Below, piece after piece: positions 26,510 through 28,413 of a DNA stretch of 64,000 bases (its first letter is position 1; every line of letters starts with the position of its first letter). The DNA lies in the NCBI GenBank assembly GCA_947493255.1, contig CANLQK010000001.1, forward strand, positions 186,001 to 250,000, read 5' to 3'. The notes below the pieces were generated by a model that was not told where the DNA came from, did not search any database, and saw only the letters and a program-made list of their open reading frames with translations. The position numbers and the translations under genes are program-made. The DNA is from an uncultured Paracoccaceae bacterium. Lineage in GTDB: Bacteria > Pseudomonadota > Alphaproteobacteria > Rhodobacterales > Rhodobacteraceae.

Positions 26510-26552
26510 AAAACAAAAAAGCGACGAGACCGGGAGGAGGTGGTCTCGTCGC
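26510..26552 (-). terminator. terminal CcsR hairpin acting as terminator
   Basis: The last hairpin of the array on the minus strand has an 11-bp perfect stem, GCGACGAGACC with GGTCTCGTCGC, a loop holding CCTCCTCCC, and a TTTTTTGTTTT tract. It is both an RNA unit and a strong Rho-independent terminator for the DUF1127 transcript. Confidence 0.9.
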
Positions 26553-26807
26553 TTCTTTTTTCGGCCTCAAGGGAGGAGGAGAGGCCTATCTTGGTCAAAA
26601 TCGGCAACCAGGGAGGAGGAGAGGTTTACCGGTTCTGACATGGTCCCAATGGGAGGAAAGAGACCAATTCTTTTATTCTTTGATCAAGTGCGGCGACATC
26701 AGGGAGGAGGAAGATGTCGCCGCGTCTTGATCGATGCGCCCGTCCCAGGGAGGAGGAGAGGGTTGGGCGCAATTACGGAGCTTTAAAAGGGAGGAGAAAA
26801 AGCTCCG
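26521..26807 (-). ncRNA. ccsR: tandem array of seven CcsR/cuckoo-type sRNA hairpins
   Basis: Seven stem-loops lie head to tail on the minus strand, first one 13 bases after the DUF1127 stop: 26776-26807, 26736-26770, 26690-26723, 26641-26666, 26602-26631, 26563-26586 and 26521-26552. Stems differ completely in sequence (5 to 11 bp, two with 11 perfect pairs) while the loops keep CCTCCTCCC: exact in five, TTTCCTCCC in 26641-26666 and TCTCCTCCC in 26776-26807. In Rhodobacter sphaeroides the CcsR1-4 RNAs have this motif, follow a DUF1127 gene and are cut from its transcript under stress. The loop is complementary to Shine-Dalgarno sequences, so binding to mRNA translation starts is likely. Seven units is more than the four known in that species. 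Confidence 0.9.
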
Positions 26808-26820
26808 ATCCGTAAATTCT

Positions 26821-27033
26821 TTAGTTGTAAGCTGCTTCGCGGGCGATGCGCTGGATGTCTCCTGCGCCGATACCCATGTCGTTCAGCTCACGTGCGGAAA
26901 GGTCACGCAGTTCGTTCAGTGTTGTGCGGTACACGCGGTACTGCGAATAGTTTTTCAACAGGTCGGAACGCAGTGCTGCGAAACGAGCGAAGATAGATGT
27001 GCCGCCGGTGCGGGTTTCTGTAACAAAAGCCAT
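26821..27033 (-). CDS. ccaF1: DUF1127 small protein (CcaF1-like)
   Basis: This 70-residue protein carries the DUF1127 domain at its C terminus: RVYRTTLNELRDLSARELNDMGIG followed by DIQRIAREAAY. It is small and basic, preceded by a helix rich in Arg and Phe. In Rhodobacter sphaeroides the homologous gene precedes the CcsR sRNAs, and the protein CcaF1 binds RNA and aids sRNA maturation. The same layout is seen here, so the same role is likely. ATG 27033 is preceded by GAAAGAGG; a longer frame to 27153 adds unlikely residues. Confidence 0.88.
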   Translation of the reverse strand: MAFVTETRTGGTSIFARFAALRSDLLKNYSQYRVYRTTLNELRDLSARELNDMGIGAGDIQRIAREAAYN

Positions 27034-27110
27034 AGTAGCCTCTTTCAAAATGCGACCCTGTGTTTCTGTGGGTCTCGGGTTGCGACGCCGTGTTGCGTCT
27101 CTGGAAATCA

Positions 27111-27137
27111 AAATAGGCAATTGCTGCGCTTGCACAA
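27111..27137 (-). promoter_or_regulatory. candidate heat-shock-type promoter of the DUF1127/CcsR transcript
   Basis: On the minus strand TTGTGC (27137-27132) and CTATTT (27116-27111) are 15 bases apart, about 80 bases before the DUF1127 ATG. CTATNT-like -10 boxes fit RpoH-type promoters, which drive the homologous Rhodobacter operon under oxidative and heat stress. The match is short and the call is tentative. Confidence 0.35.
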
Positions 27138-27282
27138 TCCCGTCAAAGCTCAATGCCGCTATGCAGAAAATGCATGGTAATTTTATTGAAAAGCCAATGT
27201 TTTGTGCAGATGGTCAGGGTGACGCAGGGAAAGATTGATGCTTGCGCAGGTCTAGGGGGCTGTTGTCTTGTCTTTGGGCAGT

Positions 27283-27315: not shown

Positions 27316-28413
27316 ATGGCGCAGACAAACGAAACGATTTTGGCAGCTCTTGGGACAATTGGCCTTCCTGATGGCGGTGATTTGGTGTCGCGCGATATGA
27401 TTCGAGCGTTGTCAGTGGAATCAGGTGCCGTTCGTTTTGTGATCGAAGCGCCAGACGCGGCCATGGCCAGCCGAATGGAACCCATCCGCCAAGCCGCTGA
27501 AATGGTCGTGTCCAAGATGCAGGGCGTCGATACGGTTTCTGTTATATTGACGGCGCATGGCCCATCCACGCCCAATAAACAGCCGCCACCCCCATCCGAC
27601 AAAACACCACCCAGCCTAACGATTGGCCGTCATCCTACGCCGCAGGCCGGCCCCGAAGGCGTGCCGGGTGTGGATCGCATTATTGCTATCGGATCGGGCA
27701 AGGGGGGTGTTGGTAAATCCACAGTCTCTTCAAACCTCGCCGTGGCGTTGGCCAAACAAGGCCGTAGGGTCGGCCTATTGGATGCCGATATCTATGGCCC
27801 GTCCCAACCACGAATGATGGGGGTGAATAAACGCCCTGGGTCGCCTGACGGTAAAACCATCATTCCTTTGCAGGCCCATGGCGTGACGATGATGTCTATT
27901 GGATTGATGGTGGACCCCGCCAAAGCCGTTGTTTGGCGCGGACCGATGTTGATGGGCGCACTGCAACAGATGTTGACGCAGGTAGAATGGGGCGAACTGG
28001 ACGTTCTGTTGGTTGATTTGCCGCCGGGCACCGGCGACGTCCAGCTGACCCTATGCCAGAAAACCCATCTCACCGGTGCGATTGTGGTGTCCACGCCGCA
28101 GGACGTCGCGCTGCTGGATGCCCGCAAAGCATTGGACATGTTCAGCACCCTCAAAACACCGGTTCTTGGGTTGATTGAAAACATGTCCACCTATGTCTGT
28201 CCAAAATGCGGCCACGAAGAACATATCTTTGGGCACGGTGGCGTCGCGGCAGAAGCCAAAGAAATAGATGTCCCGTTTTTGGGCGCATTGCCCATTGATC
28301 TGGACACGCGACTGGCGGGCGATGCGGGAACGCCTATCGCCGCAGGCGACAGTGCAATGGCGGACGCCTACGCGACCTTGGCGAAACGTTTGATCGATGG
28401 CGGAATGGGATGA
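27316..28413 (+). CDS. mrp: Mrp/ApbC-type Fe-S cluster carrier ATPase
   Basis: This 365-residue cytoplasmic P-loop ATPase binds and transfers iron-sulphur clusters. Residues 1-80 form a MIP18/DUF59-type domain; a Pro-rich linker follows; the deviant Walker A loop [11 protein letters not shown] is at about 127-137, and the cluster-binding CxxC is in [13 protein letters not shown] near residue 294. The [14 protein letters not shown] switch II segment is typical. Its stop overlaps the following GNAT gene by four bases. The gene faces away from the DUF1127/CcsR unit, with about 280 bases of shared upstream region. Confidence 0.95.

Follow-up and report, generated by a model that had tools for sequence, protein, structure and literature searches.

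A seven-hairpin CcaF1-CcsR operon in an uncultured Paracoccaceae bacterium and its predicted control by an LsrB/VtlR-type LysR regulator

A cuckoo RNA array behind a DUF1127 gene

We analysed a stretch of 64,000 nucleotides from an uncultured Paracoccaceae bacterium, here called the window, to which all positions in Table 1 refer. By reading the letters and folding them, we found seven minus-strand hairpins with CCTCCTCCC-type loops between 26515 and 26807, downstream of a gene for a 70-residue DUF1127 protein. The motif CCTCCTCCC is exact in the loops of hairpins 2, 3, 5, 6 and 7, hairpin 1 carries TCTCCTCCC with one change, and hairpin 4 carries TTTCCTCCC with two. A sequence-only reading had described seven consecutive minus-strand stem-loops sharing a loop, five of them exact and two with one or two changes, as a CcsR/cuckoo array that follows a DUF1127 gene and ends in a terminator. 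Direct reading, folding, the motif-bearing loops and the protein family match agree with this description; the interval it gave, 26521-27033, spans the gene and the hairpins but clips the terminator by a few bases.

Table 1. Features of the operon and of the region upstream of it, with positions in the window
Feature	Position	Strand	Remark
Palindrome ATGCA-N5-TGCAT (= TGCA-N6-GCAT)	27161-27175	minus	candidate LsrB/VtlR-type LysR box; genus alignment
TGCATAGCGGCATTG	27151-27165	minus	second part of the box, overlapping the palindrome; match to consensus TGCATRGCNGCATTG
TTGTGC	27132-27137	minus	candidate -35 element; spacing behind the box GCAT
CTATTT	27111-27116	minus	candidate -10 element; assigned by inspection
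DUF1127 gene, 70 aa, CcaF1-like	26821-27033 including stop (26824-27033 plus stop)	minus	PF06568, 42.1 bits
Hairpin 1	26776-26807	minus	variant loop TCTCCTCCC; fold and stem covariation
Hairpin 2	26735-26771	minus	exact CCTCCTCCC loop
Hairpin 3	26690-26723; outer GATCAAG/CTTGATC arms 26682-26732	minus	exact loop; class-B stem GCGGCGACATC
Hairpin 4	26641-26666	minus	short loop with CCTCCC; conserved variant
Hairpin 5	26602-26632	minus	exact loop
Hairpin 6	26563-26586	minus	exact loop
Hairpin 7	26515-26554	minus	exact loop; intrinsic terminator, T run TTTTTT

The minus strand folds with a free energy of -126 kcal/mol (z = -9.1), which none of 100 shuffles equalled. The plus strand folds too (z = -5.2, again equalled by 0 of 100 shuffles), as is the case for inverted repeats, and the C-rich loop motif and the T run at the end occur on the minus strand only. 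Hairpin counts rest on a purpose-built hairpin finder; in 50 simulated windows, which overproduce lone motif hairpins (a mean of 15.5 per window versus 3 outside the array), the largest cluster of motif hairpins had two members, versus seven here. No tandem repeat was found at the DNA level in the window's array. An Rfam scan of the window at gathering thresholds returned tRNA only and no cuckoo match, and we did not take an Rfam match as defining the family. Adjacent motif-bearing hairpins, kept loops on variable stems, a DUF1127 gene upstream and a terminator at the end characterize cuckoo/CcsR loci, and all are found here. The locus is a CcaF1-CcsR ("cuckoo RNA", CIN1) operon, of a known kind to which it adds one member.

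The ccaF1-CcsR1-4 operon of Rhodobacter sphaeroides (RSP_6037) likewise co-transcribes a DUF1127 gene with CCUCCUCCC-loop RNAs and ends in a terminator (PMC10253847), but it yields four RNAs, whereas the operon here has seven hairpins in the order aaBaaaa (B being a stem class defined below) and two conserved variant loops. The NfeR1/alpha-r14 RNAs of Rhizobiales (SmelA075, SmelA099) also present CCUCCUCCC loops on variable stems; the accounts that we drew on give them three or four hairpins and a sigma-70 promoter and, in the parts consulted, do not mention a DUF1127 gene.

Array size, variant hairpins and hairpin order

Cuckoo arrays are widespread in the family: 334 of 394 genomes have CTCCTCCC loops in one or more pairs with a spacing of 20-50 nt and 60 contain no such pair, with the reversed pattern matching some genomes too, usually at lower counts. 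Outside the genus, 40 arrays of the family, taken as those with listed positions and at least one loop pair and not drawn at random, contain between 2 and 26 hairpins with a median of 6; some adjoin a contig end or a stretch of N (L033, L049), and their sizes are lower bounds. Fourteen further arrays were added, 13 picked for their size and one for its kinship. Named relatives that possess an array include Litoreibacter and Tateyamaria. Within the genus, 17 loci including the window (the best match per genome, with 17 of 19 genomes matching) have between three and eight hairpins, and five is the commonest number (nine loci). Seven hairpins are therefore only two above the genus norm, and the earlier description of the array as enlarged does not hold. 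Billenkamp et al. in 2015 reportedly gave all four CcsR RNAs two stem-loops each, or about eight altogether. The count of four in R. sphaeroides, against which the seven had been measured, is one of RNAs and not of hairpins; RS0680a by itself is described as two stem-loops (PMC3927594).

The closest relative, L079, does not differ from L004 in the 2,000 bases that were compared. Hairpins 5 and 6, which precede the terminator in the window and in L079/L004, have no clear counterpart in the other relatives; L089, whose kinship is doubtful, likewise has two additional hairpins before its terminator. The largest array (L036, 3438-4577) has 26 hairpins and contains a 140-nt, three-loop unit repeated 6.5 times at 97% identity, and another of the largest, L068, contains an 89-nt unit repeated 5.4 times, also at 97%. 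Nine DUF1127 matches occur in each of two genus mates, G395 and G396. Additional DUF1127 genes in G395 (one), G396 (three), G401 (one) and G407 (one) precede other cuckoo arrays (L096, L097, L098, L104, L105, L107), which lie away from the main array and consist of three or four similar hairpins.

The two variant hairpins had been suspected of decay, which their conservation in the genus rules out. For hairpin 1 (19 rows from 17 loci), 99.1% of the cells in six core pairs are paired, four of the six pairs have changed on both sides, and the covariation score was reached by none of 500 shuffles. CCTCCC is present in all 19 rows, the full nine-base motif in three (L064, L091, L093) and CTTCCTCCC in nine. 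The hairpin 4 alignment has 17 rows from 16 loci and none for the three-hairpin locus L084; every one of the 17 retains CCTCCC, whose columns are the sole invariant ones, while the full CCTCCTCCC occurs in none and CTCCTCCC in five. A standard pair directly closes the hexamer in 14 of the 17 rows, which leaves a smaller loop than the 10-14 bases or so of the window's other hairpins. Hairpin 3 has paired changes at 5 of 18 pairs, with 97.4% of cells paired and a covariation score that 0 of 500 shuffles reached; its stem is more conserved, with 9 of 18 pairs invariant, and the count of further pair types did not rise above the shuffles (464 of 500 as high). The shuffles overstate significance because the rows are related, but the paired changes remain direct observations. 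Judged from these alignments, hairpins 1 and 4 are conserved variants and not decaying copies, and the paired stem changes bear out the earlier proposal that the loops are under selection while the stems have diverged.

We next describe a recurring stem class, B, defined by the 5′ arm CGGYRRYNY (GCGGCGGCACC and similar), which is found in 134 of 441 hairpins versus 5 of 441 shuffled arms. Hairpin order was compared in 54 arrays (L024-L077), made up of the 40 arrays, the 13 large ones and one genus mate. A B hairpin is first in none of them and last in 38 (17 expected by permutation), and two B hairpins are adjacent three times where 34 are expected. Where the last hairpin is B, a T-rich run comes after it in 30 of 38 arrays, and where it is not B, in 11 of 16; behind internal hairpins such a run is present for 12 of 96 in class B and for 7 of 291 outside it. 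The run marks the last hairpin whichever its class. Hairpin 3 of the window belongs to class B. The claim that the seven stems are unrelated fails for this hairpin, whose stem class recurs through the family; the stems of hairpins 1 and 4 are variable. The order aaBaaBaa in L092 and L094 corresponds to a duplication of the first three hairpins, and the identity and order of individual hairpins are kept within the genus. These patterns suggest that arrays are built of modules, in each of which variable hairpins are followed by a closing B hairpin, perhaps derived from a terminator.

The upstream block and a candidate LysR regulator

Upstream of the operon lies a block that often reads TGCA-N6-GCAT, then RGCNGCATTG, then TTGTGC. 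In the genus, the sequences before the operon can be aligned along a stretch resembling CCATGCAnnTTCTGCATAGCnGCATTG, with TTGTGCAnnnGCAGCA located 22-23 nt behind the inner GCAT and, in many of them, CTATTT further downstream. The window's box is TGCA-TTTTCT-GCAT, and its inner GCAT ends 44 nt before CTATTT. If CTATTT, which was assigned by inspection, occupies -12 to -7, the palindrome lies at about -71 to -57. From TTG to CTATTT the distance falls one base short of the RpoH spacing that we derived from promoter details in PMC3441632.

The pattern ATGCA-N5-7-TGCAT is present in 40 of the 59 loci with an identified DUF1127 ORF (67 loci examined). A 15-mer consensus, TGCATRGCNGCATTG, composed after the genus alignment had been seen, is exact in 46 of 79 loci, with one mismatch in 19, two in 4 and at least three in 10. 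Scanning all 1,193,298 positions of these loci gave 48 exact sites, of which 46 are the counted array sites and one belongs to the L034 array; in the genome of the window, TGCATAGCGGCATTG is the sole exact site. When a wider zone was searched array by array, a box with at most two mismatches was found in 51 of 55 arrays, and it is kept in four of five arrays that have no DUF1127 match. Exact TGCA-N6-GCAT occurs in 36 of these 51 boxes, the outer TGCA being inexact in the other 15, 11 of which have TGCG. A TTG element follows the box GCAT by 22 or 23 nt at 35 of 39 exact sites, and CTANNT follows by 43-44 nt at 19 of 39 and was not found at the other 20. Loci L027, L034, L037 and L052 each have an array and a box (at most two mismatches) with no DUF1127 match in the preceding 700 nt.

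A strict bipartite pattern, the 15-mer with TTGTGC 12-20 nt behind it, occurs in 95 of 198 family genomes and in none under a reversed control; it is found twice in G048 and G168 and singly in the other genomes. We fetched 30 of the 97 places, and all 30 are followed by at least two cuckoo hairpins, the first of them 184-383 nt downstream. The block is therefore associated with the RNA array. By itself the short box lacks specificity, since the genome contains 88 sites with at most two mismatches versus 21 for the reversed control. Nine genome sites have at most one mismatch, and in the stretch inspected behind each of them TTGTGC follows only at the array and at a site linked to a LysR gene. 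At L127 (about position 1500, minus strand), the box has one mismatch, and its GCAT is followed 44 nt on by CTATAT. It lies before a small basic ORF (roughly 50 residues), which adjoins an ORF resembling, by eye, ribonuclease HII; this box is possibly a further target of the same regulator.

The block resembles sites of a known LysR group. In Sinorhizobium meliloti, LsrB activates the cuckoo RNA NfeR1 through TGCA-N6-GCAT at -72 to -57, nearly the position of the box here, according to the shift assays, point mutations and lsrB deletion reported in the consulted part of PMC10746234. In Brucella, the passages used give VtlR the motif CAATGCAGCCATGCA and have it raise AbcR2 and three DUF1127 genes (PMC12595884). 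Read on the other strand, CAATGCAGCCATGCA agrees with the window's TGCATAGCGGCATTG at 13 of 15 bases, and many relatives differ at one. From the form quoted for A. tumefaciens, GCAT-N3-TG-N3-T, the window differs at one specified base (PMC7486931). As excerpted from these two sources (PMC7486931, PMC12595884), the VtlR/LsrB-AbcR-DUF1127 regulon of Rhizobiales places a LysR gene beside sRNA genes, and the regulator activates an sRNA together with DUF1127 genes. Here the sRNA that neighbours the LysR gene is SorX/SorY-like and not ar15, and the DUF1127 gene shares one operon with the array.

As a query for the regulator we took, from one Rhizobium genome, the LysR gene that neighbours a tandem pair of ar15 (AbcR) RNAs, a LysR-AbcR neighbourhood described in S. 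meliloti (PMC7143759). Among 26 matches in the genome of the window, the best homologue of this Rhizobium LsrB (G000:C4:202064-202933) is 42% identical and scores 252.9 bits, with the next at 128.8; the reverse search returns LsrB at 251.4 bits versus 159.6 for the next, which makes the two reciprocal best matches. Directly behind the LsrB-like gene are a one-mismatch 15-mer box, in which the outer half is TGTG instead of TGCA, then TTGTGC, and a SorX/SorY-like RNA (RF02784, 56.6 bits). The pair of LysR gene and sRNA occupies G000:C4:201829-202933 (L125, L154). Of 20 second-rank SorX places (45.8-55.3 bits, one being the genome's own second copy), 17 hold beside the RNA a LysR gene 66-79% identical to that of the genome, a fraction that is no rate for all SorX-like RNAs because the places were chosen as second-rank matches. 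Within 210 nt downstream of the LysR stop codon, TGCA-N6-GCAT is present in 11 of the 17 relatives and the 15-mer with at most two mismatches in 4, and neither is present in L221 and L228. At the strongest SorX loci, a LysR gene or box near the RNA was found in 0 of 30. No publication joining CcsR with LsrB or VtlR was among the literature matches listed. We predict LsrB/VtlR-type control of these arrays.

Proposed control, alternatives and significance

We consider it probable, at roughly 70%, that the CcaF1-CcsR operon is a single transcript activated at TGCA-N6-GCAT by the genome's own LsrB/VtlR-type LysR protein. This protein would bind the palindrome and activate transcription as LsrB does at nfeR1, perhaps with an RpoH-type promoter acting alongside. 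The transcript would start near 27104, include the DUF1127 ORF and the seven hairpins, and terminate at hairpin 7. If it behaves like its R. sphaeroides counterpart, RNase E would then cut it in the A-rich linkers into small RNAs, whose loops would expose the anti-Shine-Dalgarno motif, pair with the ribosome sites of target mRNAs and block them. The steps after transcription are modelled on work in R. sphaeroides and S. meliloti, of which we used parts (PMC10253847, PMC8625941, PMC7866481, PMC8307010, PMC10746234), and not on data from this locus. What sequence shows directly is a set of hairpins conserved through paired changes, a DUF1127 gene as their partner, a terminator and a conserved promoter block; from these and by analogy we infer how the array is transcribed and processed and what it targets.

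The operon might instead be an ordinary CcsR operon driven by RpoH-type heat and singlet-oxygen sigma factors alone, with the upstream block serving another regulator. The available portions of the R. sphaeroides reports describe an RpoHI/RpoHII promoter and name no LysR factor (PMC10253847, PMC8307010). In the arrays compared here, the TTG is conserved and CTANNT is conserved in part, in keeping with such a promoter. A sigma factor alone leaves aside the palindrome-bearing block, which is retained with at most two mismatches by 51 of 55 arrays, lies upstream of the region that sigma factors bind, with its inner GCAT ending 44 nt ahead of the -10 element, and matches a LysR-type site in form and place; we regard this explanation as unlikely, though it is the one we would take most seriously after LysR activation. 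Some observations do count against LysR activation, namely the ten of 79 loci with at least three mismatches to TGCATRGCNGCATTG, the 15 of 51 array boxes with an inexact outer TGCA, the limited specificity of the short box and the looser LysR-linked box, and with 26 LsrB matches in the genome the box could serve another LysR protein. The intergenic region that holds the block is shared with a divergent gene for an Mrp-type ATPase (27316-28413, plus strand). It is very improbable that the block belongs to that gene, as across genera it precedes arrays (at all 30 loci fetched) and stays with four of five arrays lacking a DUF1127 gene.

A different question is what the hairpins do. Instead of working as separate sRNAs, they could together titrate a single partner (Hfq, CcaF1 or mRNAs) as multivalent decoys, with copy number as the output, and the spread from 2 to 26 hairpins within one family and the 97% identical repeat units in two of the largest arrays would suit such a sponge. 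We find it improbable, given that hairpin identity and order are kept in the genus and that the R. sphaeroides work consulted has its CcsR RNAs arising by processing and names a target for them (PMC8307010). A genome search for GGGAGGAG-N3-10-ATG gave 10 sites versus one reversed-control site. One of the 10 lies within the array itself and five precede ORFs longer than 120 residues, encoding a DUF2147 protein, a solute-binding protein, an AMP-binding enzyme, a CO-dehydrogenase-like flavoprotein and a TRAP DctP protein. These five are target candidates only, as a strong ribosome site matches any anti-Shine-Dalgarno loop.

Taken together, the evidence inclines us, somewhat beyond even odds, to a joint reading in which a near-unique block places the arrays under family-wide LsrB/VtlR control, so that the circuit of LysR regulator, sRNA and DUF1127 protein described in rhizobia and brucellae would be an ancient alphaproteobacterial one, and in which the arrays are modular, each module ending its variable hairpins with one of conserved stem, formerly a terminator, and have grown by duplicating modules to as many as 26 hairpins.

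The conserved box points to a candidate regulator, and this testable LysR link matters more than the array itself. An LsrB-type box before most of the sampled arrays would join the work on LsrB and cuckoo RNAs in Sinorhizobium with that on CcsR in R. sphaeroides. With between 2 and 26 hairpins and a rule for their order, array length offers a natural experiment on what many copies of an anti-Shine-Dalgarno loop do.
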